From a virus, in the IMG/VR virus record IMGVR_UViG_3300047121_000644, positions 1 to 26,085 of that record: a stretch of DNA of 26,085 bases, one strand, 5' to 3'. Made by a program: the position numbers and the translations under genes. A model generated the notes under the pieces. It did no database searches. It was not told the origin of the DNA and saw only the letters and a program-made list of their open reading frames with translations. Shown piece after piece: positions 3,345 through 26,085 of the stretch (positions within the stretch are counted from its first letter, which is position 1; every line of letters starts with the position of its first letter).

Positions 3345-3384
3345 GGGGTGGTACTCGTTGTGTGTCGGGTACCACCCCGTTTTT
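3345..3384 (+). terminator. Intrinsic terminator of the rightward operon
   Basis: A perfect ten-pair GC-rich stem (ggggtggtac with gtaccacccc, 14-base loop) is followed by g and five T residues. The T-run reads into the stop codon of the converging giant gene. In the leftward direction no U-run follows the stem, so it is a one-way terminator. A weaker cctag/ctagg stem lies just upstream (about 3310-3335). Confidence 0.85.
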
Positions 3385-6300: not shown

Positions 6301-9300
6301 GCTGGTTTCTTATGACTCGTGCATCACGCATTCTCATTCGCTCAGCAGTTACTTTATCTGGATACTGAGCGATGTAGTCTTTGAGCGGATTCAATTCATC
6401 CTTGGCGATTTTATTTTCATCAAGCTTGGATAGTCCTTGCCAAGTTGGGATGTTCGGAGCAACTTCCTTACGCATCTTGACAACACCACCCTTGTAGCCT
6501 TTGAACGCAAGAGGAGCGATTCTCTGTCCTTGCTCAGTCAGAGTGCCAAGAACAGTTTGATCGAACAGTGCCCGCATGTGTCGACCAACAGTTGAGTTAC
6601 CAACTTTAGATTGAATCCTGTCTAAGGATTTTGCAATTTTAGCGGACGTAGCTTGCGAGTATTGCTGAGCAATCTGCTCTGACGTTAGGGACGCAGACGC
6701 AGGTGGCGCAGGTGCGTTGCTTGGAAGGCGAGAGTACAGTGTCGGACTACTGGCTTCTTGCCGCATCTTGTCAGTGATTGGGAACACTGACATGTCACCA
6801 GTATAGCCTGGATAATGTTTATGCATTTCTTCAAAAACATCTTGTTCATCATCCAAGAAGTTATCACGATTAACAGCACCCTCTGGCATCAGATAACTTC
6901 TATTCCAGTTTGCTTTAATCTTTTTGGAATCAAACTTCTTGACATACTTTTCTATATCTCTGGTTTTTATGTCATAGGATTCCTTAAGCTCCTTTACTGG
7001 TCCCTTCACTGCACGAGCCGAATCGGCACCATCGACAATAGCAACGGCATCATAGCCGTCATCAATTGCTTTCTTTAGGACTGACTTAAACGCCAGCATA
7101 GAGTAGCTACCCTTAAATGGGCTCTTGTTGGCTTGCGGTACATCAAGTGCTGGATTTATATCGAACGTCATAATCATTTTTTGTTTTTTTTCTACTTCAT
7201 TGGATAAATTCCTTATTTCAGATATAAGTTCCCTGAGTCTTGGCTCGAATTTAATTAGAAATTCCGACAATTCAGGTCCGTATACGGATAGATCTTTATC
7301 AAGTCGAGGCTTTTTAACTGTCGAATTCAAATCATTTCTTAGTCTTGCATAACTCTCTAGTGAGCTTAATCGTGAACGAATCTTTTGGTCAATTAAACTA
7401 AAAATTTCAAATTTTTCATCAGAGAAAATATCTTTGACTATACTTAATTCTCCATTTATTTCTTCTATCTCAAGCCTTAAGAGTTGTGATTTTTCGAGTG
7501 TACCATAACCTTCTTTTTTTCCAATCTGATGCCAGTCTGATTGAATTTCCGAGATCACTTTTATTTTGGCATTTTCCTTGCCTGGGATATTCATAACAAG
7601 ATCATGGCCGCGAGCATGAACAATCAGGTTACGGTCATTTGGAAAATGTCCTGTTTTATAATACACACCCTCATTAAGGTCTTTTCTTTGGGGAAGATAG
7701 TCGGTGACTGATATCTTCAAATGAAAGTTTGAATTTGGTATTCCTCCTGGTACAGAATATTCATCCATGTACTTTAAGTCTAATGACATAGGTTCTGAAT
7801 CTAGAAAACGCCTCAATGGGTACTTAATAGGATCTTTTACAACATCATCCATTGTGTACATTTCGATCTTGAGCTTAGGAGTGTTTTCATTGATGTGATC
7901 AATGATCTGCTGCTTCGTTAACTTAGGATTGTCGTCTAACAGTCGAAGCAACCCTAAGTCGTCAATCTCGTCCTTGGTTAGGTTCTTTAAGAACAACGCT
8001 CTCCACTGCTCGGAGGATGCTTTGTCCTGTTTAAATTCATTCACGAGTTTGAGCGACTTCATTTTGAATCCGGCGTTGATGCCTTCATCGCTCATGGAGT
8101 ACAGAGTGCCGCCTTTGAGATCAATGTCACCAAGTCCTATGTCTCCTAATCTCTTGCCAAGAGTTTTGTTAATCATCACTCTTGGGTCACGCTTGCCAGA
8201 CAAGAAATCTTTCATGATCAAGCTGGTATCGTTGTAGCCAATAGATCGGCGCAGAGTATCCCACAGGTACTCAAACACTTCGAGCATCTTACCCCAAGCC
8301 GTCTGTAATAATCCCTCTGGCTTTGGTCGACCTAAATGCTTGATCGTAAGGTCGGACATTTTCTTGCCGACATACTCGTCGATACTGGAGAGATGATACG
8401 GCAAGCTGGCTCCAGGGTTATCAACCTGATACTTACCAATAGCGTTGACGTACTCGTCGTTGACAGAAGCCAGTTCTGCGTCTGTAAAGAATCTAGACAG
8501 GTGATGCCATAGCTCATGGACAGTATCCTCGGTGACTCGCTTGTTCTTTATGGAGTTGTCGAAGATGTCGATGATGCCTTGGTCTAGGTCGATCTTAGCA
8601 AGAGCAGATTCGTTCGGTGCCTTGGCTCCATAGCGAAGCTGAATACCCTCAGTGAATCGCTCTCCGACTCGGCCAAGCATTTGACCCACAACCAGCCTGG
8701 CTTCTTCTGGTAGCTCTTTAAGCGTTTTGAGGTCAACAGTAACTCCGCTAGGGACTGAACTTGCTGCCGAAGAATTGTACTGCTTTTCAAATTTATCTAG
8801 AACAGAATATAACTGATTGTCGTCACTACTTTTCTTTTTCTTTGTAAATCCAAAGTTAGGCTGACTTGCTTTGCGAGAAGCTCTATTCAAGTCTTCAAGT
8901 GCATCAAGAGCGGTTTCAGACGAACGACCGTACTTTTCGAGAATGGTTTGGTGCAGAAGATCATAACCCTCTTCTGCTGTCATTTTGTTTATCTTAAATT
9001 CTTTGGCGAACGCTTCGTCAACTTCCTTGAGTTCTGGGATAGACTTTAAGGAAGAAGTAATTATGTCTTCATATTTTCGTCCCAGTGAATCAATGTCATT
9101 GATATAATCAAAGACCTCATCTTTAGTTAGACTGGTCTTGCTGTCCAGTAGCTTTAATAATTCAAAATCATCAATCTCATCTTTACTAAGGTTGCCAAGA
9201 AAAAGAGACTTCCATTCTTCAGAAGAAGCTTTTTTCTTCTTAAGTCTACTGACGACACTCAATGGCTTTTCTTTTAGTGAGGCTAGGAAAACTTCTCTTC

Positions 9301-11725: not shown

Positions 11726-11782
11726 AGCTTAACCCCAAGATTAACTGACAGCGTGTAACGATTCGAGCGAGGCGTTGCGATG

Positions 11783-12778
11783 CTACTCACCGCTGAGCAT
11801 CATCAACAACTGCTGGCTTAGATCTGGGTCTTCCATGAGTGCCTGAGCGATCATGTCTTCAAGAGATGGTTCATCACGCATATTCAAACCACCCATCGCA
11901 TTGGCTGTATTGCCTGCAATAGCAGCAGATTGGAGCATAGCGTTGCGATCACCACCGAGAACGCGTCCACCAAAATCTCCTGCAATACTACGTGCATTAC
12001 CTAAGCCAGTGCGAGCACCGCCGTACATCGACCGACCAAGCTGTCCTGCTCCACGATAAACACCTTCTCGAATAGGCATAGTCGCGTTATCAAACCGCGT
12101 GTCAAGATTCTTGTTAGCAAGGTCAACCGCAGATTTAATCTGATCATCAGTCGACATTTGACGACGCAGATTGTTCGCCTGTTGCTGCAATTGCTGAGTT
12201 TGATTGGTAAGATTAGCAGGTCTTCCGAGACCTGGAGCAGGCGTATTAGCCGCCATCATGTCAATCGCATCTGCCCGTCGAGCAAGATTCTTATTTTGCT
12301 GCATCAACTTACCGGCAGTCGTAGCATTCATGCCCGCACGATAACCGCTTTTTGTAGCACCTAGCACGTTACCGGCACCCTTCAGTGCAGACATGCCAGC
12401 CTTGGCTCCAAGCTTACCAGCCGCAGCAGTACCACCAGTAGCCAGCATCAGCGGATCCGTTAGCACATCGATAAGCAAGCCAGCCATCTGGTTGCCACCA
12501 GAGTTCTCATCACCACCCATCCAGTACCGAGAAATCTCTGCACCACTGGTTCGATTCTCATCGCTGAACGGAGTGAATAATTGATCGATTGGATTAGAAA
12601 ACGAGATCGCATCTCGCACCATAGATCCTGGCAGGTTAATCAGATTGCCAGCACCGCTCAGCACATTACCCAAAACACCGTAGTCCATATCAAAGCCTGG
12701 ATCTTCTGGCTCAGGCTCATTGTAATACTGCGGAGCATTAAATCCCATCAATCCACTAGGGCCACTCATTCGACTCAT
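11783..12778 (-). CDS. 331-aa putative internal virion protein, paralogous to the giant's N-terminus
   Basis: ATG follows AAGGA at a good spacing, 21 bases after the previous gene. Residues 42-86 (GNLINLPGSMVRDA, NPIDQLFTPFSDENRTSG) and 96-129 (LTDPLMLATGG, KLGAKAGM) align with residues 66-164 of the 2780-aa protein encoded next. The C-terminal half is Ala/Gly/Gln/Asn-rich and helical (QQLQQQANNLRRQMS), like podovirus internal core proteins. The final residues (SLEDMIAQALMEDPDLSQQLLMML) look amphipathic. I infer a structural or ejected protein that shares a docking or packaging module with the giant protein. No named family is recognised. Confidence 0.75.
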   Translation of the reverse strand: MSRMSGPSGLMGFNAPQYYNEPEPEDPGFDMDYGVLGNVLSGAGNLINLPGSMVRDAISFSNPIDQLFTPFSDENRTSGAEISRYWMGGDENSGGNQMAGLLIDVLTDPLMLATGGTAAAGKLGAKAGMSALKGAGNVLGATKSGYRAGMNATTAGKLMQQNKNLARRADAIDMMAANTPAPGLGRPANLTNQTQQLQQQANNLRRQMSTDDQIKSAVDLANKNLDTRFDNATMPIREGVYRGAGQLGRSMYGGARTGLGNARSIAGDFGGRVLGGDRNAMLQSAAIAGNTANAMGGLNMRDEPSLEDMIAQALMEDPDLSQQLLMMLSGE

Positions 12779-12799
12779 ATCACCATCCTTGTATAGTAA

Positions 12800-15343
12800 T
12801 TACTTTCCTTGGGTCTTTGGTTTTTCTTCAAGGATCGACTTTTCTCGGAAGTTCTTAGCCATAGCTTCAGGAGTAAACCCAAACGCTCGCGCAAAGATGT
12901 TAGTAGCAAAGTTAACCAGAGGATTAGCGAACGGAACTTTGTAAGCGCCTGCACCACCGTAGAACAGGTCGCCAACAGTCCTTCTTTTTGCCAAAGCTTC
13001 CGCTCTTTCTTGATCATTTAGCTTCAAGTCATACTGACTTTCTAGATCAGAAATCTGCTTAGGATCTGTAATGTTGTTTGCCTTTAGCCATTCTTGGAAG
13101 TCAATGTACCTGTCGGCTCTATTTGTTGCTTCGGAACTAAATTTCGGCTTGTACGCCAACGGGAAGTTCTGCTCGTTGAAACTGTAAGGATCGCGAAGCG
13201 CTCTTATGCGAGACTCCTTCTCCATACCACTCAAGTTAGGATCACTGATAGTGGCTGAAATCTGTTCTCTTATGTCTTTTTCAGCTTGAGCTTTTCGCTG
13301 AGTATCATACATATTAACCAGAGCTTGATTTTCCGCAGCAGCCATCTCTGGTCTACTAAAGGCGTTGTAAGCCTGACCGTAATTACCAAACGCTTGATTT
13401 GGATCTTGCATAGCAGCCAATGACATCAGGGCATTAAAACCGTCTTGGCCCCCACCAATAGCACCGCGACCCGCCATAAGGTTTCGCAACTGCTGAGAAG
13501 CGCCAGCCGCATCAGCCGCAGCTTGGCGACGATTAGCAGCCATCTCTAGCCTAGTCTTCGTTTGATTCGCCAAGTCTTGTGACCTCGCTTCACGCTTAGC
13601 ATTGATTCGATCGCGATACACAGGATTGGTAGCCATGTTCATCTTGTGTCGATAGAACTGAATCTCAGCGGGAGTCATTGCCTTAAGATCTTCACGCTGG
13701 AAAGTCCCGATATTGGGATTGGATCCTGACTGAGGATTCGGGAACATGCCAGCGTCCTGCAAAGCCGAAAACTTTTGCTGATCCTCTCTGCGTCGATCCT
13801 GATTGGCAAAAGCCAAGAGATCTGGATTTGGCATGTAGCGAGTTAGGCCATCGGGACTTGGACCTCCCATCGCTTCCTCTGCTCTCTTACGTCTATCTTC
13901 TTGGTCAGCACGAGCCGCCGCAGCAGCAGGCCCACCATCACCCAAAGGACGATTCTGGCTCTCCATAATTGCAGCATCACTTGGTAATGCGCCCATGCCG
14001 GAACTAAAGAAACCGGATCGCCTCTGCGATGGAGTTGCATAATACCCCTGGCTCTCAGAAAGATTGCGATCAACAATTTCATTGGCACCCTGTACGCCTT
14101 GCTGACGACCTTGCTCAACACCATCAGCGATCATCTTGGATGTCATGCCATAAAGATCTTCACGTGGCTGTGCCGCCAATCGACGAGCCTCTTCATTGAA
14201 ATCTGCCAATGCATCTTCTGGAGTCTGCTGCCTCATAGGAACTGACTGACCTGGGCCAAACTGTGTGGGAGAGTTTGCAAACAGTTCAGGCTTATATGGA
14301 ACCCTTACATACCCACCGCCAGTCATATCGCCTGAAACATAATTACCATCTCCTTGCTTCTGTTGCTGCTGGTTAACCGGCCCAGGTCTTGGATCAAACA
14401 TACTGCCTACCTGAGACCACACATTGCCAGACTTAGGCAATGCTTGAGCAGGTCTTTGCCAGTTACCAAAGATACCAGCCGTTCGAGGTTGTGGCTGAGA
14501 CACGCCTTCGCCTGCCAATACAAAATCATTAGGATTTTCGACTGGAGTATTTGACAAAGACGACATGAGATTCAGAAAATCCTGTGAACTCATATCACCC
14601 ACACCAGCCTCTGTAGCTTGAGGACTGGAATCGAACATACTCCCAGGCTGAGCCTGAGACTTAGGCAATGCTTGAGCAGGTCTTTGCCAGTTACCAAAGA
14701 TACCGGATGTCTGAGATGCGGATTGAGCAGGCTTTGACTGCAAAGGCGACTGCTTTCCAAACATGCTGCCTACCTGAGACCACACATTGCCACTCCCCTG
14801 AGCCCCACCAGCTACAGGAATCGCAAAATCTCTCAAGCTGCTTCCCTGATTAGAACCTAAAGGTTTGTTGAAAGCCCCACCTAAATAAACCATCTCTCTC
14901 TTTGACATCGCAGGCGCATCAGGGTTAAACCTATACACCAAATCATCATATTGTGGCTGCGTAGTTGAACTACTACCTCTCCCTGGCAAAAACGGCATCT
15001 GCTGCTGCCTACCCGAACCATAAGCAGACGGCGATGGCTGCGCATTAGATGAGCGGCTTTGATTGCCTCCGGACATATAGTTGCTAATAGCGCTTCTGGC
15101 ATCGGCCATATCTCTCTTAGGCATGTAGTATTCATCGTAGGGGCTTTGTGGTCGCAGCGGACTCATAGGATTGCCGCTTGGCTTAAAGGTAAGCAAGCCC
15201 TGCAATGGATTCTGATTACCCATGCCAGACTGAGAGCCAGGACGACTCCCACCAAAGCTCATCGCATTATTGCTTCTGTACTGAGACTGCTGAGGTCTTT
15301 CCATGCTTGGCATGCGATTCATCGGATCATTTAATCTTGTCAT
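12800..15343 (-). CDS. 847-aa Gln/Ser/Asn-rich putative virion protein with internal repeats
   Basis: The N-terminal ~400 residues are low-complexity (Gln, Ser, Pro, Gly, Asn), probably disordered, and carry repeats: NVWSQVGSMF occurs twice and GIFGNWQRPAQALPKS twice. Residues ~560-780 are helical and charged (KMNMATNPVYRDRINAKREAR, EQALVNMYDTQRKAQAEKD), likely coiled coil. The C-terminus has a Gly/Phe-rich, weakly hydrophobic part (GDLFYGGAGAYKVPFANPLVNFATNIFARAFGF) that might contact a membrane. The start is ATG with a weak GAGAAG site. Size, composition and position before two other large virion-type genes suggest an internal or ejected virion protein. I recognise no family. Confidence 0.75.
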   Translation of the reverse strand: MTRLNDPMNRMPSMERPQQSQYRSNNAMSFGGSRPGSQSGMGNQNPLQGLLTFKPSGNPMSPLRPQSPYDEYYMPKRDMADARSAISNYMSGGNQSRSSNAQPSPSAYGSGRQQQMPFLPGRGSSSTTQPQYDDLVYRFNPDAPAMSKREMVYLGGAFNKPLGSNQGSSLRDFAIPVAGGAQGSGNVWSQVGSMFGKQSPLQSKPAQSASQTSGIFGNWQRPAQALPKSQAQPGSMFDSSPQATEAGVGDMSSQDFLNLMSSLSNTPVENPNDFVLAGEGVSQPQPRTAGIFGNWQRPAQALPKSGNVWSQVGSMFDPRPGPVNQQQQKQGDGNYVSGDMTGGGYVRVPYKPELFANSPTQFGPGQSVPMRQQTPEDALADFNEEARRLAAQPREDLYGMTSKMIADGVEQGRQQGVQGANEIVDRNLSESQGYYATPSQRRSGFFSSGMGALPSDAAIMESQNRPLGDGGPAAAAARADQEDRRKRAEEAMGGPSPDGLTRYMPNPDLLAFANQDRRREDQQKFSALQDAGMFPNPQSGSNPNIGTFQREDLKAMTPAEIQFYRHKMNMATNPVYRDRINAKREARSQDLANQTKTRLEMAANRRQAAADAAGASQQLRNLMAGRGAIGGGQDGFNALMSLAAMQDPNQAFGNYGQAYNAFSRPEMAAAENQALVNMYDTQRKAQAEKDIREQISATISDPNLSGMEKESRIRALRDPYSFNEQNFPLAYKPKFSSEATNRADRYIDFQEWLKANNITDPKQISDLESQYDLKLNDQERAEALAKRRTVGDLFYGGAGAYKVPFANPLVNFATNIFARAFGFTPEAMAKNFREKSILEEKPKTQGK
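14429..14476. repeat. 48-base direct repeat, copy 1 (copy 2 at 14657-14704)
   Basis: The 48 bases recur identically at 14657-14704 inside the same gene and encode the GIFGNWQRPAQALPKS unit. A 27-base repeat encoding the NVWSQVGSM unit is found at 14403-14429 and 14766-14792. Base identity over the full lengths implies recent duplication or gene conversion. Confidence 0.9.
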
Positions 15344-15744: not shown

Positions 15745-16386
15745 TTACTTGACAGCCAATCTTGTATACCATTCGGTGTCATCAGGCGATTTCATCTGAT
15801 ACTGACTATGCGGGCAGCCAGTGTCGCTCCACCTAAACACATACGTCGGCTCTCCTATCTCACACGGATCTCCGCAAGAGGTATTTGCTTTCCAGTAGTT
15901 CAAGCTTTGCTGATCGAAGTCAGCACGCTCCGTCTGGACAAAACCACCTAGCCTTGAGAATTCCATGCAGCGAATCGCCAGCGAAGCCCAGAACCTACCA
16001 CCACTGGCTTCCTTTTCCATCTTGCCGGTGTAAGTACTCCACACCGTCGATGGATAGCTCATGTTGTGGATACTCAGCACCTGCGAGTGAAATAGCAGAT
16101 GATTCGGCAGATAGATGTCATCGTCATCCCAAAGGGCTATAGCATCAAAGTCACCAAAACGCTCAGACAGCTTGAGCATCTTGTTGTATTTAGCAACAAT
16201 CCCTGGCTCTCGCTCCGTGGTTGTGATGATCGCCATGTCATCATCTACTTCCTCGTTGAGCGTACCCAGATCATCGTAGATCAGAAGAAACGCATCCGAG
16301 TGAGCCTGGCTTCTGAAGCAAGCAACTGATTGCTGGATTAAATGCTGCGGTCGATTATAGGTCGGGCAGAGACAAAGAAATCTCAC
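15745..16386 (-). CDS. Family 2-like glycosyltransferase (213 aa)
   Basis: The N-terminus MRFLCLCPTYNRP and the WDDDDIY motif (DxD-type, nucleotide-sugar/metal binding) are typical of GT-A fold glycosyltransferases. I chose GTG at 16386 rather than the ATG at 16410: GGAGGT lies five bases before the GTG, and GTGA overlaps the stop of the methyltransferase gene, a coupling arrangement used repeatedly in this block. The protein would transfer a sugar from a nucleotide-sugar donor; acceptor and sugar are unknown. At about 210 residues it is a minimal catalytic domain without membrane segments. It is the third gene of a sugar-modification cassette inside the virion operon, so a virion protein is a plausible acceptor (inference). 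Confidence 0.85.
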   Translation of the reverse strand: MRFLCLCPTYNRPQHLIQQSVACFRSQAHSDAFLLIYDDLGTLNEEVDDDMAIITTTEREPGIVAKYNKMLKLSERFGDFDAIALWDDDDIYLPNHLLFHSQVLSIHNMSYPSTVWSTYTGKMEKEASGGRFWASLAIRCMEFSRLGGFVQTERADFDQQSLNYWKANTSCGDPCEIGEPTYVFRWSDTGCPHSQYQMKSPDDTEWYTRLAVK

Positions 16387-16979
16387 TGGATACCTCCGTC
16401 GTAAAACCAAATACTTCCTGGGCCTTTCTGAGTATCAGGAAGCACCTCAGCCAAGACTTCAGAAACTCCTGGCCAGTGACGATCGTGACCGCAAAGCAAG
16501 CCAATTGGACTGATTAACTCTTTCCATTTCAGCAAGTCGCTACGAAACGAATCGGTATCATGAGCCCCATCCAAAAATATCATGTCGGCACCACCACGAT
16601 CCGCCAGGATAGGACGCAGAAAATCGGCAGCCCTCTCCGATGACATAATCAGTGGAACACACTTACCTTGGTCAATCATCTCCATGAGATTCTGCATTGC
16701 TTTGGTCATCACCTCGCTACGACCTGTTCCGGTCTGCATAATCGAATGAGCGTTTGCTAGCTCCTCCGGAGAACCCTGCCAGTGATCTACAGCGTAGACA
16801 ATACCAGTAGTACCAAGGCACATCGCCGTAGTGCTCCTGCCTTGCCATACACCTACCTCTACAATCAGAGATGCTTTCCTGGCTTGCTCGTAAAGCCAAA
16901 GTAACTCATCGTCGTACATCCAGCCTTGGATTGGCTTGCACTTATTTAGAACCTCATCACTAGCTATCCTTGCAATCAT
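16383..16979 (-). CDS. Class I SAM-dependent methyltransferase (198 aa, Methyltransf_24-like)
   Basis: Motif I is intact as IVEVGVWQGRST. A downstream acidic residue in VYAVDHW and the MIFLDGAHD motif followed by LKWKELISPIGLLCGHD match the small-molecule or sugar methyltransferase group found beside glycosyltransferases. I chose ATG at 16979: AAGGAGG lies nine bases upstream and ATGA overlaps the preceding stop. A longer frame to 17027 would run 17 codons into the upstream gene without support. Probable role: methylating a sugar, perhaps one placed by the flanking glycosyltransferases (inference). Confidence 0.85.
   Translation of the reverse strand: MIARIASDEVLNKCKPIQGWMYDDELLWLYEQARKASLIVEVGVWQGRSTTAMCLGTTGIVYAVDHWQGSPEELANAHSIMQTGTGRSEVMTKAMQNLMEMIDQGKCVPLIMSSERAADFLRPILADRGGADMIFLDGAHDTDSFRSDLLKWKELISPIGLLCGHDRHWPGVSEVLAEVLPDTQKGPGSIWFYDGGIQ
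16392..16397 (-). promoter_or_regulatory. Ribosome binding site deciding the glycosyltransferase start
   Basis: GGAGGT on the - strand, five bases before GTG 16386, inside the last codons of the methyltransferase gene. It rules in favour of the GTG start over the upstream ATG at 16410. Confidence 0.8.
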
Positions 16980-18949
16980 AACTTGCACCCTCCTTGACAT
17001 CCTTCTTTGGTGCAGGTCTGCTTGCACTCAGCCCGACGAATCGCTTCGCGTATCAGCGATCCATGTATGTCTGTTGGATCAATCTTCCAGGCTAGATTCC
17101 AAGTCGTTGGATTAAGCACGTTGATCGCTGCAACGCGCAGGTAATCTGTCCATGACCAGTTCGTTGCATTCTGGTTGACCTGATTCAAGATCCACTGGAA
17201 GTTCTGAGGATCGCGACAACCCTCAACTCCCCAGATGTCCATCTGGTTTGCTGTTGCCTTGCAGGTGCAGTTAGGTTTGTCCGTCACGCCAATGTCCTTG
17301 AGCATCTCAAACATCTCAGTGCCAGGACCAAATCCAGGCGGCCACAACCATATAGCTTCCTTAGGCCGATCCTCTGGATTTTTCGCAAGCACAGTGAGCC
17401 CGTACTGATTTTTGTTGTGGTGTGATATGAACCACAAACCTTTTTCAATGAGCGGACGGATAGCAGAATACAGACCTCCCTGCCCATCGTCACCTGTAAA
17501 CCCATTGGTCTCAGTATCGTGAAACACAATGTACTTACGAACGTGATCTTTCCACAACGCAAGCTCTTTCATTGCCCTGTTAGCATTGTGCCGTGTGTCG
17601 ATGAACAACAGATCGACTTCTTGAGTAGGAAGCGGAATGTCATTTAGGCTACCAACAGCCATAGACAATTCTGTATTGCCGTCTTTCAGTCTCTCTAAGA
17701 CATCTAGGATCGCATCATTTTCTTCCTGATAGCTAATCATCTTCTTTGGCTTAGCTGCTAAGAGTGCTACTGTACTCTCTCGTCGCTTAGTCATCTCAGC
17801 TACATACTCACACTTTTCAGCCAAAGCACGCAAGGTTGGCATATGCTCATTCAAGTCGCGAGGCTGCTGCGAAACCCACCTATACACCTCCTCCAGGCTG
17901 TAGGTGTTTGTAGGCTGTGGTTGCAAAACTGGTCGACCACTAGCACTGGTCAGAACAGCCGAGTTCACCGTGAAGTTGACTGGATCGGCAACGACCCTTT
18001 CCCACACTCCTGGCTTCATACCTTGAGAGGCGAAGTGCGATCGAATCTCCTCTAGGTCTCTGCCTAACTCCAAGAAGCCAAGAACGTAATTGCGAATCTT
18101 ATCCTCTTGAGTCAGTGTGTATCTGACACCGTTCGGCCTAGCAAACCGATGGTTCCAAACCAAGAATGGTAAGCACATGGTCTTGTGTCCATGCTTACGG
18201 TACTTCTCGTGGATATAACCTTCCTCGCCACCAAACGCTCGAAAGTGTTCATTGAATCCAAGCCATGCTTCTTTGCGACATGTAAACAGTCCGAGCCCTT
18301 GAGCAGGTATCTCAAACGGTTCATCGTCTGGGCTACCAGCAGCCAGCTTGTAGCCTCTGGCAAGTAACTCCTGAACAGAACCAAAGTAGTCAAGCTTAGG
18401 TAAGCCCCACTCCTCTGGAACAGGAGTCATCTCTGGATTCAAAATAAAGTAGCCAGCTTTGCCATCTTTTTCGTGAACTGTAAAGTAACCATGTTCACAC
18501 TTCCACGCTGTTCCCCAGATGCCCCACATCTGATCTCGCCACCTGAGATCGAAGTGAGTGTAGGACCAATTAAGCTGATCTAGGATCATTGGCCCCTGGT
18601 AAAGATCCATAGTGTCTGGATGCTGACGATACCACTGCTTGAGCCGAGCTATTGCTTGAGATGCCAACAGAACGTGACAGTCCATGCACAACACAATGTC
18701 GCCGGTCGCTTCTCTAAAGACTCGCTCTCGCGTTTGCGTTGTACCACTGGCTCCTTGCATTGGTATGTATCGAACACCAGTTGACTCACAGAAGTTCTTG
18801 ACAGCGTTACCCTGAGCAGTTCCAGGGCTATTATCAACAACTATGATTTCATCATCAGGCGATAAACTCTGGTGCATCCTCAGAGATTGAACGGTAAAAA
18901 ACACTCCATCGAAGTCTTCATAAGTTGCCATTCCGATAGTCAGTTTCAT
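16976..18949 (-). CDS. Glycosyltransferase / methyltransferase-like fusion with Cys-rich tail (657 aa)
   Basis: Residues 1-~290 form a family 2 glycosyltransferase: MKLTIGMATYEDFDG, IIVVDNSPG, GDIVLCMDCHV (metal/donor site), and FGGEEGYIHEKYRKHG near the end of the domain. Residues ~370-525 resemble a class I methyltransferase (VDLLFIDTRHNANRAMKELALW, KYIVFHDTETNG), but the expected Gly-rich motif I is replaced by AEMTKRREST, so SAM binding may be lost. The last ~100 residues have CTCKATANQMDIWGVEGC and end ECKQTCTKEGCQGGCKL, a Cys-rich module that could bind zinc. ATG is preceded by GAGG. It follows the mucin-like tail gene by nine bases and overlaps the methyltransferase gene, forming one cassette. 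Confidence 0.85.
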   Translation of the reverse strand: MKLTIGMATYEDFDGVFFTVQSLRMHQSLSPDDEIIVVDNSPGTAQGNAVKNFCESTGVRYIPMQGASGTTQTRERVFREATGDIVLCMDCHVLLASQAIARLKQWYRQHPDTMDLYQGPMILDQLNWSYTHFDLRWRDQMWGIWGTAWKCEHGYFTVHEKDGKAGYFILNPEMTPVPEEWGLPKLDYFGSVQELLARGYKLAAGSPDDEPFEIPAQGLGLFTCRKEAWLGFNEHFRAFGGEEGYIHEKYRKHGHKTMCLPFLVWNHRFARPNGVRYTLTQEDKIRNYVLGFLELGRDLEEIRSHFASQGMKPGVWERVVADPVNFTVNSAVLTSASGRPVLQPQPTNTYSLEEVYRWVSQQPRDLNEHMPTLRALAEKCEYVAEMTKRRESTVALLAAKPKKMISYQEENDAILDVLERLKDGNTELSMAVGSLNDIPLPTQEVDLLFIDTRHNANRAMKELALWKDHVRKYIVFHDTETNGFTGDDGQGGLYSAIRPLIEKGLWFISHHNKNQYGLTVLAKNPEDRPKEAIWLWPPGFGPGTEMFEMLKDIGVTDKPNCTCKATANQMDIWGVEGCRDPQNFQWILNQVNQNATNWSWTDYLRVAAINVLNPTTWNLAWKIDPTDIHGSLIREAIRRAECKQTCTKEGCQGGCKL

Positions 18950-18958
18950 ATTGCCTCA

Positions 18959-21900
18959 CTAAAAACCTGGGGGAGGTGACGGGGGAGATCCTGTAGTCCC
19001 AGCGCTAGTAGTAGAAGTGCTGGTACTTGTCGATGTACTGGTACTTGTGCTAGTTGACGTAGAAGTGGATGTACTTGTGCTCGTTGTTGGTGCCGCAGTC
19101 GTCGTAGTCGTTGTCGTTGTTGTGCAAGAGCATGCATCACAACTCCATACGCTACCAGGGGCACATACACCGTGAGGAGGTGCTCCGACGCAACCACATT
19201 CTTCAGCAAAACATGGACAAGCTGTTGTGGTTGTACTTGTCGATGTACTGGTACTTGTGCTAGTTGACGTAGAGGTACTAGTGCTGGTCGTCGTGCTAGT
19301 TGTCGTTGTGGTTGGAGTGCAGTTATTTACCGAAGCACAAGTAGATCCAGCACCCTGGAAGACATGACCAGCGGATTCGCAGAATAGCTGAGTCACCCCT
19401 TCGTAGCACGAGTTCTGCACTGGAATGCAGCATGCGCCATTTTGCGAGGAACAGTAATTGACGCTGGCACAAGTACTGCCATTACCTTGATATGTTCCGC
19501 CAACGGATGTGCAACTAGCCTGACTTCTTTCAGAGCACCCGCCTATCGGCATACAGCACGCACCAATTGGAGTTGTCGTTGTCGGGCTAGCTGTAGTGCT
19601 GGATGTGGTTGTGTAGTACCGACAAGAAACACCAAGTACTTGGCAGTCATCAGTCCCTGGAGTACTTGGTGCCGAACTGCAACCGCAAGATCCGCACTGG
19701 TCAGATATCAGCACCCAAGAGCTTGCGGCACTATTCCAGCGATAACGGCATGGGCCTGGGCAAGGATCTGGAGTTGTACTTGTGGTCGAAGAAGTTGTCG
19801 TGCTAGGTGCAACTGTCGTATAGCAGACATCACATGGACTAGGAGGCTGAGAAGTCGTTGTAGTTGTGGTGGGTAAAGGAGTAGTCGCTTCGCGAACACA
19901 TGGCGTTGTTATGGAAAGACCACACGGGCATGTATCACTATCCGTTGGATAAGAGCACCTGCAATCTCCTGAGGTAAAGCAGTCACTATTTTTTTGATCG
20001 TACCACCACCCTCTACCTTCTCCTAAGCAAACCCATACGCATTCACCAACACAAGGCTGAGGTGGAGGAGGTGGAGGATCAGGAGGATCGGGAGTGGGTA
20101 TGCAAAATGTAGTAACGCACGTACAAATTTCTAATTGTCCAGTATACGGATTGCATGGGCATGACGGGTCGCACTTGTTTTCAAGCGTGATTGTTCCATT
20201 AGGCAGCAGACACCATTCACAACCATCGCTACAGTTTGGGCTGAGGCTAGTAGTGGTAGTAGTTGAGGTTGAACAATCACATGGCGTCGTCGAAGTGGTA
20301 GATCCAGCCGAGGTAGTCGTGCTTGTGGTTGACGAAGTTGTTGAAGACGTGCAGGCATTATCTACTGTAAAGTTACGATCGCAGTAGGTCGTCGTGCAGT
20401 CACCTACGGTAATTGGGCAGAACGTAGGAGGAACACACTCACAATTACCACCCGAAGTTGTTGAGGTCGGAGTGGGAGTTAAAGTCGTCGTCGCACACGG
20501 ATGAGCCGTCGTAGTCGATGTAGTCGCACCAGGGCTAGTGCTAGACGTTGACGTAGAGGTCGATGTCGATGTCGATGTTGTACTATTAGAGCACGTATTC
20601 TCATCGATTACCCATACCAAGCCATCGTTACTAATCCACTTGCACGTTCCCTGACAAGTCGAAGGTATAGGAGGAACCAGTGTGGTGCTTGTCGTGGTAG
20701 CAACCGTACCACCTTTCTCCACAATGAAATACTCGCCACTGTAAAAATCCAGACTAGCAACCACCCAAGTACCGACAGCCACTGCCGACGTACCTATATG
20801 GCTCAAGGTGACTGTCTCGTAGGGTATCTCCGATAAAGAACTTCCTGGCTTTTGGTAGACCTGAGCCTTACCCCTGGCTGGAGTCTCACCAGTCTGAGCC
20901 GCTATCGGTTCGATCGTCTTGCATACAAGCGTCTTACTGACATCCCACTCATCGTTCCTGGGACTAGGAAGGCTTATCTCAAAGTCTTCATACTGCTCAA
21001 TCGTTGTGGTAACGCCAATACGACGAGTCATCTGATAACAAACGTGACTTACTTCCTCACCAGGATGAACTAAGACCACCCCCGCATACACACGCATATT
21101 GCGTGAATGATTCGCGCGAGCAACACCCCTTATCGTCCTTGCTAAGTCATCGCGTCGGTAGTTAAGCTGAACCAAGTTCTTTATAGTAGATGTCTCGGAA
21201 CAGTATTTGGTTCGCGATGTATCGGTAACGTAATGAACCGAGCCCAGCTTCGCACCAGGCAGACCCGTATACACACTGGCTTTCGACCCATACTCATCTG
21301 CCGATAAAGGCAAGCGAAAACTAAGTGCAGTGCGTGACGGCCTAAACGAAACACCTACCGATGCAGGAGCATTGCCACCATTGATACCGACAGGATTGTC
21401 ACCATCCCACAGCAGTTTATCCCTGCTCTGCTGTAGAATAATTGCAAGGTTAGCTTGGGTGCCATCTCTAGTTAAAAAAGAGTAGGTACCATTGGTCGGA
21501 TTGAAGTAGCCAACATGACCACTCGCAGAGAGTATCTTGTGGATACAACTCCAAACCGTATCACCTTCGCACCAGATATTCTCAGCGTAACTAGCTGGAG
21601 TCGTAGCCAGCGTTGGGCACACCACACTGGCTCCCTTGTGGAAGCTAGGCATCGCCTCCCAATACTGAGCAAGAACTTGCTGATACGTGTAGGTGCTGTT
21701 GTTCGGCCAGATCTCCTCTTCCCATGTATTGGCAATCACTGCCGCTGGAGTTTTGGCAACGGTCGTAACCATGTGCCTGGGATCTTTAAGCGTCACAAAG
21801 AACAACTGGCTTGGCGAATCATCCTGGCCTATTGCTTCGACATTCGTAATCGTCCAGTAGTTGGACGTAAACAGAATATTGTCTCTGTCATCCAGAATCT

Positions 21901-22105
21901 CAATCTCATGCGATACAGCATTAACGCCAATGAGATCCAGAGTCTGCTTGCTGATTATCAGATAAGCTTCAGAGGGGCGCTCACCCCGATAGAGATGGAT
22001 AGAGCCAGCCTTGCTGAAATAACCCTGAGAATATCTCGCAAGAGGTTCTAACCGAACTTCGGCTGGATCGATGCAGTATTGACCGTCAATCCTAAAGTAC
22101 GTCAC
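18959..22105 (-). CDS. 1048-aa tail protein with mucin-like Thr/Ser tracts and Cys-rich knots
   Basis: The start is GTG with GAGGT upstream, three bases after the previous stop. Residues 1-~470 form a globular, tail-like part (MTYFRIDGQYCIDPAEVRLEP; NILFTSNYWTITNVEAI). From ~470 to the end, Thr/Ser tracts of up to ~30 residues, many alternating T-S, separate Cys-rich units: GTCKWISNDGLVWVIDENTC, GPCRYRWNSAASSWVLISDQC, and two tandem GACC units (GACCMPIGGC... and GACCIPVQNSC..., each ~38 residues). A Pro run (PPDPPPPPPQP) lies near 675. Such tracts are typical of extended, O-glycosylated stalks, and the Cys units are probably disulfide-bonded. Two glycosyltransferase genes follow directly. I infer a tail fibre or surface stalk; host binding is not shown by the sequence. 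Confidence 0.8.
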   Translation of the reverse strand: MTYFRIDGQYCIDPAEVRLEPLARYSQGYFSKAGSIHLYRGERPSEAYLIISKQTLDLIGVNAVSHEIEILDDRDNILFTSNYWTITNVEAIGQDDSPSQLFFVTLKDPRHMVTTVAKTPAAVIANTWEEEIWPNNSTYTYQQVLAQYWEAMPSFHKGASVVCPTLATTPASYAENIWCEGDTVWSCIHKILSASGHVGYFNPTNGTYSFLTRDGTQANLAIILQQSRDKLLWDGDNPVGINGGNAPASVGVSFRPSRTALSFRLPLSADEYGSKASVYTGLPGAKLGSVHYVTDTSRTKYCSETSTIKNLVQLNYRRDDLARTIRGVARANHSRNMRVYAGVVLVHPGEEVSHVCYQMTRRIGVTTTIEQYEDFEISLPSPRNDEWDVSKTLVCKTIEPIAAQTGETPARGKAQVYQKPGSSLSEIPYETVTLSHIGTSAVAVGTWVVASLDFYSGEYFIVEKGGTVATTTSTTLVPPIPSTCQGTCKWISNDGLVWVIDENTCSNSTTSTSTSTSTSTSSTSPGATTSTTTAHPCATTTLTPTPTSTTSGGNCECVPPTFCPITVGDCTTTYCDRNFTVDNACTSSTTSSTTSTTTSAGSTTSTTPCDCSTSTTTTTSLSPNCSDGCEWCLLPNGTITLENKCDPSCPCNPYTGQLEICTCVTTFCIPTPDPPDPPPPPPQPCVGECVWVCLGEGRGWWYDQKNSDCFTSGDCRCSYPTDSDTCPCGLSITTPCVREATTPLPTTTTTTSQPPSPCDVCYTTVAPSTTTSSTTSTTPDPCPGPCRYRWNSAASSWVLISDQCGSCGCSSAPSTPGTDDCQVLGVSCRYYTTTSSTTASPTTTTPIGACCMPIGGCSERSQASCTSVGGTYQGNGSTCASVNYCSSQNGACCIPVQNSCYEGVTQLFCESAGHVFQGAGSTCASVNNCTPTTTTTSTTTSTSTSTSTSTSTSTSTSTTTTACPCFAEECGCVGAPPHGVCAPGSVWSCDACSCTTTTTTTTTAAPTTSTSTSTSTSTSTSTSTSTSTSTSTTSAGTTGSPPSPPPGF
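19023..19063. repeat. 41-base exact direct repeat in T-S tracts, copy 1 (copy 2 at 19233-19273)
   Basis: Forty-one identical bases encode alternating Ser-Thr in two separate tracts of the tail protein. The tracts otherwise use mixed synonymous codons, so this exact identity suggests recent duplication or conversion. A third T-S tract at about 20540-20580 has short gtcgat repeats. Confidence 0.85.
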
Positions 22106-22108
22106 GCA

Positions 22109-22855
22109 TTACCTCAGCGTTGGCAAAATCAAAGAAGGATTGGGGAGTATGTAGTGATACGTCCAGTGAACCGTATAAACCATGTAGCCCTGTGCGTATC
22201 TCTTCGGACTGTCCCTCTGGATAACTGTTTTGTCGCCCAGCAAATAAGGTCTTGAGTAAAGAGGCGAGGGAGGAATCGGATACGCATCAATCGCCTGCAT
22301 GTGCCCAGAGTGGCTGTAGTAAACAAAACTTTGAGCGTTTCTTATTTGAAACCCAGGAGATCCAAAGCGAGTGTTGTACCACTCCACAACAGGCCCACCG
22401 TCACCAACCTGCTGAATCCTATCCTGATATTCGATGATCTGGCTGTACGAGTTCTTAAACAGCGCAGTGATACCAATCGTAAAGGTACGTTTCGTGGCGT
22501 ACTCATTACCGTCACCCATTGGCCAGTTGCGGTGACTGATGACATTGCCAGTCACATTGTCAGGGTGATTGTTTGGAAGCACATGAGGAGTTGGCAATCC
22601 ATTGTCTTGATAGAAGCCAGCGTCTTTGTAGTCGTCCTTGTACGCATTGATTAAGGTGTTGATCTTGTTAGTCAGATTGGCTTGGCAAGCCACCTTATCT
22701 GTGATACCGTCATCGACGTACAACTCACCTTCAAGGTGCATTGAGTAGTGCGTACCCAGTCTAAACCCTTGCTGATTGCGCTGCGGTACAATCTGGAAGT
22801 TAGCTAGCGTCACTTCATTTGCGGGATGCTGATAGTTGCCGTATCGAAAATACAT
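22109..22855 (-). CDS. 248-aa probable tail protein
   Basis: The start ATG shares one base with the upstream stop (TAATG), so translation is coupled. The protein starts MYFRYGNYQHPANEVTLANFQ and has a beta-rich, aromatic composition (RPYLLGDKTVIQRDSPKRYAQGYMVYTVHWTYHYILP). It contains GLPTPHVLPNNHPDNVTGNVI, which may be a loop. It lies between the coiled-coil protein and the long tail protein, in the tail section of the operon, so a tail-completion or baseplate-type role is likely. I do not recognise the family by sequence. Confidence 0.7.
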   Translation of the reverse strand: MYFRYGNYQHPANEVTLANFQIVPQRNQQGFRLGTHYSMHLEGELYVDDGITDKVACQANLTNKINTLINAYKDDYKDAGFYQDNGLPTPHVLPNNHPDNVTGNVISHRNWPMGDGNEYATKRTFTIGITALFKNSYSQIIEYQDRIQQVGDGGPVVEWYNTRFGSPGFQIRNAQSFVYYSHSGHMQAIDAYPIPPSPLYSRPYLLGDKTVIQRDSPKRYAQGYMVYTVHWTYHYILPNPSLILPTLR

Positions 22856-23916
22856 TAGAGTCTATCCACTACTGATTCGATATTGCGAACCTTAACCGCC
22901 AACGCTTGTAGCTCTGTCGCCAGCTTGCCCATCACATTGACCATGCTCTGTGCAAACTCAGTAGCCTTCGATGCCGCTGCATCCATCGACCCTAGCTTCT
23001 CGCCATCGTTAACTACTTGCTGCTCACCTTGAGCACCAGGATCTGAGATAGGTGCAGGCTCAGGAATCCCAGCAACAGGTGGCGGAACTTGCTCACCACG
23101 CTGCCGCCTAAAATTCCTAGCAGCAGCTTCCTTCTCTTTCTGTGCTGCCTCACGACGCTTCTGAACTCTAGGGCTAATCTTGCCCTTACTCTCGCTTCCC
23201 TTAGCCTTAGGCGTGCTCGCAGACCCCTGGCTAGGCGCATTCCCAGAACCAGAATCCATTCCACCTAAGTCAGGAGTGTCAACCCTAAAGTCAAACTTCA
23301 CACCCAGCATGTCTGAAAAGAACTGATCGCTCTTAGGATTTTGAACGAATACATCCAGTTGATCAGACTTGCTATTATCTTCTGGAACCTCTACGAAAGG
23401 ATTCTCGTCTGGTATCTCTACAAAAGGATTCTCGTCAGTAGAGTTCGCAAGAAAGTTCTCATCGGAAGCAGGGTCGTCTTTTTTGTCTACGACACCAGTA
23501 AGCAGAGAAGGTGATCTAGGTTTCTGTGGCTGATCACTACGGGCTTCTGGCTTTTTCTCTTCTTGTACTCTACCACCCTTCTGCGGCGACTCCTGACCTG
23601 AGGTGGCCTCGTCTTGGCCTTGCTCAGTATCTTCTCCCTCTTCCATCCCGTCATCGACTTCTGGCGACCCGCCGACGATTCCCTTGGTGAGTACATCAAG
23701 GACTCCAGTTAGACCTGCAAACAAACCAACATCAAACTGAGAAGTAGCCTTCCTGATCCTGGCCTGATCTCGCTTCTTCTTTTTGCTCGTCCTCTTCTGG
23801 CTTCTCTTTTCGGTCGACTTCAGCGCAGACGATCTACCAAACTGCCCTGGCTCCATTGCCCGAAACAGCCGATCGTCAGCCTGCATGATTTTCTGAAGTC
23901 GTTTGTCAACGCTCAT
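22855..23916 (-). CDS. 353-aa highly charged, disordered protein with C-terminal coiled coil
   Basis: The start ATG overlaps the upstream stop (TAATG). Residues ~35-60 are strongly basic (KRSQKRTSKKKKRDQARIRK). The middle is acidic and low-complexity (DDGMEEGEDTEQGQDEA) and contains a tandem repeat DENPFVEIP-DENPFVEVP. Another basic stretch (~250-285) precedes a Pro-rich link. The last ~50 residues form heptads (FAQSMVNVMGKLATELQALAVKVRNIESVVDRL), a likely coiled coil for oligomerisation. The location between tail genes suggests a tail assembly or chaperone-like role, but nothing identifies a family. It is too short and atypical to call a tape measure. Confidence 0.7.
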   Translation of the reverse strand: MSVDKRLQKIMQADDRLFRAMEPGQFGRSSALKSTEKRSQKRTSKKKKRDQARIRKATSQFDVGLFAGLTGVLDVLTKGIVGGSPEVDDGMEEGEDTEQGQDEATSGQESPQKGGRVQEEKKPEARSDQPQKPRSPSLLTGVVDKKDDPASDENFLANSTDENPFVEIPDENPFVEVPEDNSKSDQLDVFVQNPKSDQFFSDMLGVKFDFRVDTPDLGGMDSGSGNAPSQGSASTPKAKGSESKGKISPRVQKRREAAQKEKEAAARNFRRQRGEQVPPPVAGIPEPAPISDPGAQGEQQVVNDGEKLGSMDAAASKATEFAQSMVNVMGKLATELQALAVKVRNIESVVDRL

Positions 23917-24866
23917 TAGGTGGTGCTATCGTTTGCAAAGCGAATTTCGTAGCCAGTGGCTTGGGTCGCCAAACAATCAAAGCTCATTGCCAATGGAATC
24001 TCTGTCTTGCCTGGAACCGTTGGCGTCTCATAGCTGTTTCGCAAGTGAGGGAATGTCGCAGTCAGCGAATAAGGACCAGCCGTAAACGCCAGTGATCCAG
24101 CAAACCCAGTCGACCAAGAATTGAACGCATTCGTGTGCGTCGTCGTCAAAAATGGATTCTTGACCTGCAAGCGAACTGTTCTTCCAAGCGGCAAGAAACA
24201 GGTAGGCGTAAGACTGTTTCGCATACGAGGCGCAATACGATTATCGATCGACAACGCAAACTCATCGAAAGGACGAGAGTTGCCATCCAGGGTCAGAACG
24301 CCCTGACCGAAGACATACGGATCATGCTGACCACCCTCCTGTAGCGCTGGAGCCGTTCCAGGCCAAGTCGGAGGCGATGCATCGTCAGGGCCAACTTCCG
24401 TCTTGGCGTAGATGAGCAGCACCATGTCAATGACTTCAGCCTCACCACCTTCGCTCGGCCCAGACTGGCCACGGAAGATAGCCTGCCCCACCACACAGTC
24501 GTCGTATCGGAACACTCCGTTGTCACGATGAACCAACATACCGAACGACGGCAAGGTCTCAGCAGGATCAATGTTATTCCCTACCTTGCTGCCACCCAGA
24601 ATGCGAGGAAGCCAGTTGTCTAGTGCTAGCGGTCCTGGCTGCAAGTGCAACCGCCCTACCGGCACATAAGATGTCTTCACTCGCCGCGAAGACGGCTCAG
24701 CCCTGGTCCCCCAGATAACGCGACCACCTGCTGTAACGCGACGGGTCTGCATCGACTCGTACACAAAAGCATACGGCTCGCTGTTAGCATCAAACACATG
24801 CACTGAAGCCCCTGGCTCCACAAGCAGTTTTGTTAAGGAGCCTATTGCTCCGCATGTTCCTGGCAT
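23916..24866 (-). CDS. Putative tail-tube-like protein (316 aa)
   Basis: The frame can start at TTG 24872, but ATG 24866 is preferred because GGGAGGG (24874-24880) lies seven bases before it and only one base before the TTG. The sequence is beta-rich with segments like AETLPSFGMLVHRDNGVFRYDDCVVGQAIF and EVIDMVLLIYAK, which recall phage tail-tube or major-tail folds. The end (SFDCLATQATGYEIRFAN) is typical of a strand-rich subunit. The strong ribosome site fits an abundant subunit. A different virion beta-sandwich protein is possible. Confidence 0.6.
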   Translation of the reverse strand: MPGTCGAIGSLTKLLVEPGASVHVFDANSEPYAFVYESMQTRRVTAGGRVIWGTRAEPSSRRVKTSYVPVGRLHLQPGPLALDNWLPRILGGSKVGNNIDPAETLPSFGMLVHRDNGVFRYDDCVVGQAIFRGQSGPSEGGEAEVIDMVLLIYAKTEVGPDDASPPTWPGTAPALQEGGQHDPYVFGQGVLTLDGNSRPFDEFALSIDNRIAPRMRNSLTPTCFLPLGRTVRLQVKNPFLTTTHTNAFNSWSTGFAGSLAFTAGPYSLTATFPHLRNSYETPTVPGKTEIPLAMSFDCLATQATGYEIRFANDSTT

Positions 24867-24873
24867 TGTCAAT

Positions 24874-24880
24874 CCCTCCC
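24874..24880 (-). promoter_or_regulatory. Ribosome binding site deciding the tail-tube-like start
   Basis: GGGAGGG on the - strand, seven bases from ATG 24866 but one base from the alternative TTG 24872. Confidence 0.8.
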
Positions 24881-24909
24881 TGAATTGTTCCCTCTACGTG
24901 GCTTTCTCT

Positions 24910-26085
24910 CTACGGTGCCCACACCAGCTTTACCGGACCTGCCAGCAAAACCTCCTCGCCAGCACTCATGTCTCGCAAAGAAAACCGCAGCGTAGATAGC
25001 TCGTATCGTGTGAAGATAAGACTCTTTGTGAACGTCACCTTATTGACCAGCGTTACCGAAAGCGAACCGTTTGAAGTTTTCGCCGTGTACAGTGTCTTCT
25101 TGCTGGCTGTATCGGCAAACCGAAGCTCAAGGTTCTTGCCGGTCAGATTGATTGGATTCTGGTCTGCATCGATCGCAAAGAAATACTGCGTGCCTGATTC
25201 ACCTGTGTAAATCTTGATCGGTGCCTCAACTGCCCTATCCTCTTGCTGAAGCTGAGTTGGGTAAACTGTCACATCGCTAGTCACATCGTACAGATGCAGA
25301 TTAAAGTATTTCGTATAAGTCCCATCCGTCATCTTGTAACGAATCGTACCTTCGACGGTTAATCGATCATTGGCGTTGTAGGCCAGTGTGTAGTAATGAC
25401 GATTAGACTCAGTTCTCAAGAATGCAATCGCACCCGATACCGCTGAATATGCACCATTGTCAATTGATTTCTGTCCGGTGATGGTTGCACCACTAGCAGG
25501 CCAGGAAAAGGTAATTGCCTTGGTATCATCTACGGTACGCTGAACAGCAACAGGAGCATTGGGGGATAGTGCTGCTTGAAGATCAGTCGAACTTAGGTAG
25601 GAAAGTGATCCAACGGTATTATCAGTTGCTACACCCAACGCGACATATGATGGGCTAGGAACTGCAAGTGTTCCAGTAAACTCGTTTGATACGCCGTAGG
25701 TTTGACCTGAGCGAACATGATTAGCCGTTGGTTGGCCGAGGTTCTGACCGCCTGTGTAGAGAGATCGGGCTACACCGGGAGTACCAGCATTATTGACGCG
25801 ATATGTATGTGTTAAACTATTTGATGCACTGACTAATACTTTGCCAGTGGAAGATATAACAAACGGAACCGTACCATTTGAAGCATGGGCAAAATTACCA
25901 TTTAAAATCAAGGTGGAAGGAGAACCAATAATTGATGCGTAATTTGTATTTGGTTCCAAAGTTCCATTTATAGTGCAAGTTGAACCACCGTTGATCCCAC
26001 GCGCATACACCGTTCCTGTTACATTAAGTGTCGGGGCGTTATTTATACCAACTAACGATATAACTGTTTCTGTTCCATAAACATT
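24910..26085 (-). CDS. Fibre/adhesin-like beta-rich protein, 5' part beyond window
   Basis: The frame stays open to the right window edge, through the GTG at 26010, so the gene continues outside and at least 391 residues are present. The visible N-terminal part is Asn/Gly/Thr/Ser-rich (NVTGTVYARGINGGSTC, SPSTLILNGNFAHAS), like repeat-type fibre or beta-helix proteins. A middle part reads as a beta-sandwich (VQRTVDDTKAITFSWPASGATI). The final ~100 residues (FFAIDADQNPINLTGKNLELRFAD, then SLRDMSAGEEVLLAGPVKLVWAP) resemble BppU-type baseplate domains, which contain a similar DxxGNPxDLTG phrase. I infer a receptor-binding or fibre-like virion protein; assignment is by composition. Confidence 0.6.
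   Translation of the reverse strand, partial: NVYGTETVISLVGINNAPTLNVTGTVYARGINGGSTCTINGTLEPNTNYASIIGSPSTLILNGNFAHASNGTVPFVISSTGKVLVSASNSLTHTYRVNNAGTPGVARSLYTGGQNLGQPTANHVRSGQTYGVSNEFTGTLAVPSPSYVALGVATDNTVGSLSYLSSTDLQAALSPNAPVAVQRTVDDTKAITFSWPASGATITGQKSIDNGAYSAVSGAIAFLRTESNRHYYTLAYNANDRLTVEGTIRYKMTDGTYTKYFNLHLYDVTSDVTVYPTQLQQEDRAVEAPIKIYTGESGTQYFFAIDADQNPINLTGKNLELRFADTASKKTLYTAKTSNGSLSVTLVNKVTFTKSLIFTRYELSTLRFSLRDMSAGEEVLLAGPVKLVWAP

Follow-up and report, generated by a model that had tools for sequence, protein, structure and literature searches.

A probable phage-encoded mucin-type O-glycosylation cassette pairing a Thr/Ser-tract protein with a ppGalNAc-T-like glycosyltransferase

A locus in a 26,085-base virus record, which was analysed over its whole length and is called the window here, probably encodes a mucin-type O-glycosylation cassette acting on a 1048-aa acceptor protein. 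The gene of this mucin-like protein is directly followed by that of an enzyme resembling the animal initiators of mucin glycosylation. The pair is encoded by many uncultured phages, which therefore probably make their own sugar-coated protein brush. The same adjacency of the two genes was found repeatedly in diverse phages.

Gene order and the Thr/Ser-tract protein

The genes of the cassette lie on the minus strand. The acceptor gene (18959..22105, GTG start) is followed by the gene of a glycosyltransferase (GT)–methyltransferase fusion enzyme of 657 aa (16976..18949), by that of a stand-alone Methyltransf_24 protein of 214 aa (16383..17027) and by that of a second, small GT2-like transferase of 221 aa with a TTG start (15745..16410). 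The first junction is a 9-bp gap and the following two are overlaps of 52 bp and 28 bp, which bears out the succession of genes described in the first-pass annotation. Gene order was identical in a 52.8-kb relative. Four further genes of the operon (248, 353, 318 and 366 aa) are situated upstream at 22109..26010 on the same strand, and the last two of them gave weak tail matches, namely Phage_tube_2 and minor tail (1.4e-3) and BppU_N (2e-4). Judging from its position and these neighbours, the 1048-aa protein is likely located in the tail. The protein itself matched no informative family in Pfam or PHROG, its sole PHROG match covering 20 residues (0.017) of a family of unknown function, so that the earlier label of tail protein is backed by the surroundings and not by the protein. 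In one related locus (L042) a tape-measure gene is present with the tract gene two genes further on, and in another (L412) tail-spike/minor-tail-like genes directly precede the tract gene. The GT genes lie within or beside the structural operon, and the tract gene that accompanies them is by its adjacency the candidate substrate gene.

Other features of the window were noted in passing. Downstream (3383-15343, minus strand), proteins of 2780, 331 and 847 aa all lack cysteine and have no informative family match; they are perhaps internal or ejected virion proteins. The charged 353-aa protein of the same operon carries an in-frame 27-bp repeat (ENPFVEVPD-like) at 23374-23436, and a tRNA-Ala (cgc) is located at 1294-1365 on the plus strand, between a primase-like gene and the gene of a PHROG-family protein annotated as ferredoxin.

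The N-terminal part of the acceptor, about 469 aa, carries no tracts. From there on (residues 470-1034; 19001..20698, minus strand) Thr/Ser tracts alternate with Cys modules, three of which were recognised by an HMM, and the composition from residue 470 on is 25% T, 16% S, 10% C and 10% P. Its 12 Thr/Ser runs are 6, 17, 6, 14, 6, 9, 7, 11, 7, 30, 9 and 28 residues long, and it contains a total of 66 Cys, in agreement with the initial description of tracts of up to about 30 residues and Cys-rich knots. No signal peptide was seen in the acceptor by eye. An AlphaFold2 (AF2) model of its N-terminal 472 aa, made from 4 sequences, reached a pLDDT of 32 and was unusable. The Cys module had no Pfam match, and no PHROG families were found for eight tract proteins.

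In the two longest tracts, identity at a 2-residue period was 86-88% for the protein and 19-21% for third codon positions, the latter at or below the chance level. All ten Thr/Ser codons are in use in the tracts of the window, and Tandem Repeats Finder (TRF) reported one weak 64-bp array in the 1048-aa gene. Since the period is kept at the protein level with no third-codon periodicity, these tracts are not DNA microsatellites, and a microsatellite origin was rejected on the third-position identity. The long Thr/Ser tracts are maintained at the protein level, as would be expected of a mucin. Two close relatives (L003 and L004) kept the cassette with altered tract lengths (30/28, 28/14 and 17/15).

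Fold and motifs of the glycosyltransferase and its companion enzymes

The fusion enzyme consists of an N-terminal GT-A domain of about 310 aa and a C-terminal methyltransferase-like domain of about 349 aa, for which Pfam gave GT2 (2e-10) and Methyltransf_24 (1.4e-4, under the curated cut-off), respectively. The motif residues of the GT are D90-x-H92, E242-E243 and H267. Among 30 diverse GT sequences D39, D90-x-H92, E243 and others were invariant, and W265 and H267 nearly invariant. The GT domain (fusion residues 1-311; 18017..18949, minus strand) was modelled by AlphaFold2 with a pLDDT of 92.7 and a pTM of 0.91. When this model was compared with the PDB by Foldseek, all of the 50 best matches were polypeptide GalNAc-transferases (best E 1.5e-11), including T1, T2, T4, T7, T10, T12, Drosophila PGANT9 and Toxoplasma T3. 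The fold match is a distant one, with 12-18% identity and TM of 0.5-0.64.

Searches of PDB sequences with the GT profile gave a similar picture, as ordinary GT2 structures matched the N-terminal half only, whereas GALNT10 and GALNT4 aligned across most of the domain. The GALNT10 alignment covers DSH and PFESPVMAGGLFA…WGGEQ…GHIYR, opposite PFE..GLGLF…FGGEE…HRF of the profile. The SPxMAGGLFA…WGGE…GHxxR region was aligned in the GALNT10 match and was not significant with the C-half alone; the C-half profile (A5) by itself retrieved no ppGalNAc-T from the PDB, and the sequence link to these enzymes is therefore carried by the longer alignments. The D-x-H metal motif and GT-A catalytic domain described for GT27 enzymes (PMC4202792) are both present in the phage GT. 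A ricin-type lectin domain is absent, the C-terminus being the methyltransferase-like domain or nothing. Because of this absence, and because the C-half alone had no sequence match, the phage protein is better said to work like a polypeptide GalNAc-transferase than to be one. By fold and profile it appears to be ppGalNAc-T-like, a distant relative of the eukaryotic enzymes, and this resemblance is the strongest reason to think that it acts on Thr/Ser.

The stand-alone 214-aa protein matched Methyltransf_24 over the cut-off (6e-12; 46.8 bits versus 26.3). The fused methyltransferase domain, below the curated cut-off in the window, exceeded it in L137 and L069, and GT fusions with homologues of this domain occur in eight other loci. 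The closest solved relative found for the 214-aa protein was PDB 6g7d (E 9.6e-5), which we take to be the mycobacterial sugar 1-O-methyltransferase MeT1. The 214-aa protein is a probable sugar O-methyltransferase. Where the first proposal had the phage methylate its stalk, this match makes the added sugar a likelier target than the protein. The 221-aa transferase had a weak Pfam match to GT2 (0.006), and in several other phages a homologue of it is encoded downstream of the gene for the GT or the GT-methyltransferase fusion. None of the three enzymes has an obvious membrane helix (maximum Kyte-Doolittle value 1.55).

The Cys-module HMM was trained on six of the mucin proteins, so that some of its matches are training sequences. 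It matched only proteins beside this GT (in nine viral and six MAG loci) and nothing in random or tract-only loci. All nine viral loci with a Cys-module mucin have the methyltransferase part, which is present in only one other GT locus (p=3e-9). The Cys-module mucin co-varies with the methyltransferase part.

Occurrence of tract genes beside the glycosyltransferase

A tract ORF was defined by a 30-aa window with at least 70% T/S, or by a run of at least 12. The GT-domain profile retrieved 44 viral loci, of which 43 were examined; the control consisted of 80 random viral contigs, retrieved with an arbitrary 14-mer. A tract ORF was present in 30/43 GT loci and in 2/80 random contigs (p=3e-16), the latter corresponding to 2 of 771 ORFs. 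A second scan, built from relatives of which one was a GT lacking a tract neighbour, yielded 537 GT relatives; among the best 80 of these, 47 had a tract gene at most 4 genes away. Removal of GTs more than 70% identical left 51 loci for a position profile. Of the ORFs at -1, 35% were tract ORFs, as were 15% of those at -2 and 12% of those at -3, as against about 1% elsewhere; in total, 29 of 136 ORFs at positions -1 to -3 were tract ORFs compared with 4 of 468 elsewhere (p=2e-16). The tract ORF was always on the strand of the GT, and the gap between the two was -19 to 55 bp in most loci.

The enzyme is the constant of the pairing, while the tract proteins differ widely. Their N-termini are varied. 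Some of the proteins have near-pure tracts of 143-170 residues (L027 and L031) and others are small, with 172-177 aa (L371, L382 and L412), while at the other end is a Cys-rich protein of 1412 aa (L025). No strong tract protein was found within 4 genes in about a third of the GT loci having at least 3 upstream genes (14/41). Some of the loci lacking a strong tract had weaker or Cys-module versions (L019, L020, L023 and L024), and in others (L355, L360 and L419) no tract protein was present. In one GT subgroup (L354-L364) the enzyme adjoins portal-like genes and no tract protein, and there the acceptor must be something else.

The latter arrangement would suit an explanation in which the GT and the methyltransferases serve to glycosylate a different virion protein (capsid, tail tube or fibre), as in mycobacteriophages, and the tract protein is a flexible adhesin that stays unmodified and has its gene in the same operon. 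The capsid glycosylation reported for phages Che8 and Rita (PMC11256854) would suit it too. We consider this explanation unlikely, as diverse phages preferentially have the tract gene at positions -1 to -3 from the GT, the fold class of the enzyme works on Thr/Ser peptides, and S/T-rich proteins are also found beside the bacterial relatives.

The pairing of the protein with dedicated enzymes was also assessed in the reverse direction, with 44 records selected for a DNA pattern that codes for Thr/Ser and 50 random records. A GT2 gene was present in 16/44 tract-bearing records versus 3/50 random ones (p=2.5e-4), and in 6 of the 9 records whose run reached 30 or more versus 10 of 35 with shorter runs (p=0.04). 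For the exact GT subtype no enrichment was seen with samples of this size (2/44 versus 1/50), and thus most tract proteins either have no exact GT nearby or use other GTs. The co-occurrence proposed in the first-pass annotation was therefore seen both ways. Homologous cassettes routinely lacking a tract protein had been named there as contrary evidence, and this is seen in part: the subgroup at portal-like genes and most of the bacterial subfamily have no obvious tract protein. Five viral records without the exact GT (L283, L285, L305, L282 and L280) contain T/S tracts of 53-146 residues, and in four of the five there are between one and six other GT2 genes, which suggests that phages have additional mucin systems relying on other enzymes.

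The GT domain is also found in a bacterial subfamily that forms a largely separate grouping in the tree. Its members are extended at the N-terminus, and some of the extensions match PqqD or HPr-kinase models. An S/T-rich protein with a Tat-type RR signal was encoded at -1 in 7/61 bacterial relatives versus 11/582 elsewhere (p=7e-4), for example in Rhodococcus (L138) and Desulfobacterales (L128), which further supports an exported Thr/Ser-rich polypeptide as the acceptor of the family. Most of the bacterial subfamily has no obvious tract protein. Small Tat-signal proteins with S/T/P-rich tails were observed beside bacterial GTs at L070:8234-8908, L100:8696-9235, L110:8389-8898, L128:8085-8558 and L138:9290-9862 as well as in L140 and L141. 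In some of these GTs the N-terminal part is PqqD-like or HPr-kinase-like, and fusions with GT25 or a sulfotransferase also occur; together with the tailed proteins they are likely a secreted-glycoprotein system.

MAG contigs with the phage-type arrangement are mostly from Planctomycetota (L063, L069, L074 and L137), plus one from Chloroflexota (L122). Over 500 GT relatives were found in viral metagenome contigs, and tblastn with five queries from different subtypes detected the GT in none of 50,697 phage records, in which a primase query used as the control matched 201 records.

Proposed pathway, remaining alternatives and known systems

In the proposed pathway the 1048-aa protein would be the acceptor, probably a tail-associated virion protein by its position in the operon. 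In the host cytoplasm, the GT-A domain would move a sugar from a nucleotide donor onto Thr/Ser of the tracts, the 221-aa GT would probably extend this sugar, and the fused and stand-alone methyltransferases would probably O-methylate the glycan. Any naming of the donor sugar or of the methyl acceptor is a guess. The product may be a stiff, hydrated and protease-resistant bottlebrush that is displayed on the particle, with Cys modules interrupting it; this order of steps and the role of the product are put forward conditionally.

Phage GT2 genes often modify the host surface. This common role could speak for enzymes that modify the host surface, as in lysogenic conversion or superinfection exclusion, or a host polysaccharide, and no phage protein. 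We considered this and rejected it as quite improbable, given that the three enzymes have no obvious membrane helix, no partner of the flippase type was recognised in the window, and the genes overlap within a late structural operon. Modification of phage DNA by the GT (base hypermodification) was likewise considered and rejected. It would agree with a match of the 214-aa protein to phrog_2675 'DNA methyltransferase' (7e-12), but is very improbable with Pfam and PDB matches of the same protein to Methyltransf_24 and 6g7d, a ppGalNAc-T-like fold of the GT and no base-modification pathway genes recognised in the window. That the tracts are DNA microsatellites or neutral low-complexity linkers with an incidental GT neighbourhood is scarcely credible, since tract length does differ between close strains but third-position identity at the tract period is no higher than chance, TRF finds almost nothing and the tract genes are enriched by position.

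Mucin-type glycosylation is textbook eukaryotic biology. If O-glycosylation of the tract protein by its neighbouring enzyme is correct, it would be a property also of prokaryotes and their viruses and not of eukaryotes alone, and a phage gene pair giving both the mucin backbone and the initiating enzyme would be a hidden strategy for coating the particle. Mucin-type glycoproteins could then also be produced in bacteria with a soluble enzyme, and the prokaryotic roots of the polypeptide GalNAc-transferase class would become testable. A search of the open-licence literature found no description of phage mucins or phage polypeptide GalNAc-transferases, which is weak evidence of absence. Quite possibly, though we propose it tentatively, there is a widespread undescribed class of phage mucins with dedicated ppGalNAc-T-like enzymes, which would have a common origin with bacterial GTs glycosylating Tat-exported S/T-rich proteins.

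With the eukaryotic GALNTs (CAZy GT27) the phage GT shares the GT-A fold, the D-x-H motif and the top 50 PDB fold matches; the GGE…GH region was aligned in the GALNT10 match, and a further parallel is the candidate Thr/Ser-tract acceptor, whose gene is the neighbour of the GT gene. It differs in the missing ricin-type lectin domain, in the low identity of 12-18%, in a probably cytoplasmic rather than Golgi location and, for the subtype in the window, in the fusion to a methyltransferase. In animal secreted mucins PTS domains alternate with Cys-rich domains, as Thr/Ser(/Pro) tracts do with Cys modules in the phage protein, which in contrast would be made in a prokaryotic cytoplasm with no signal peptide visible by eye. 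S-glycosyltransferases of the SunS type are likewise GT2-type enzymes, and they add a sugar to a ribosomal peptide (RiPPs) whose gene is close to their own, but they target Cys and the sugar is S-linked; SunS was a weak PDB match to the phage GT profile, in the N-half only. Virion glycosylation of the mycobacteriophages Che8 and Rita was reportedly studied by Freeman et al. in 2023. These phages likewise have GT genes and glycosylated structural proteins, the modified proteins being the major capsid proteins, and the passages on them in PMC11256854 mention no mucin-like tract protein. MeT1, the mycobacterial MMP 1-O-methyltransferase (PMC9883506), is the best solved relative of the 214-aa methyltransferase and shares with its predicted role the O-methylation of a sugar, the acceptor there being a free oligomannoside.
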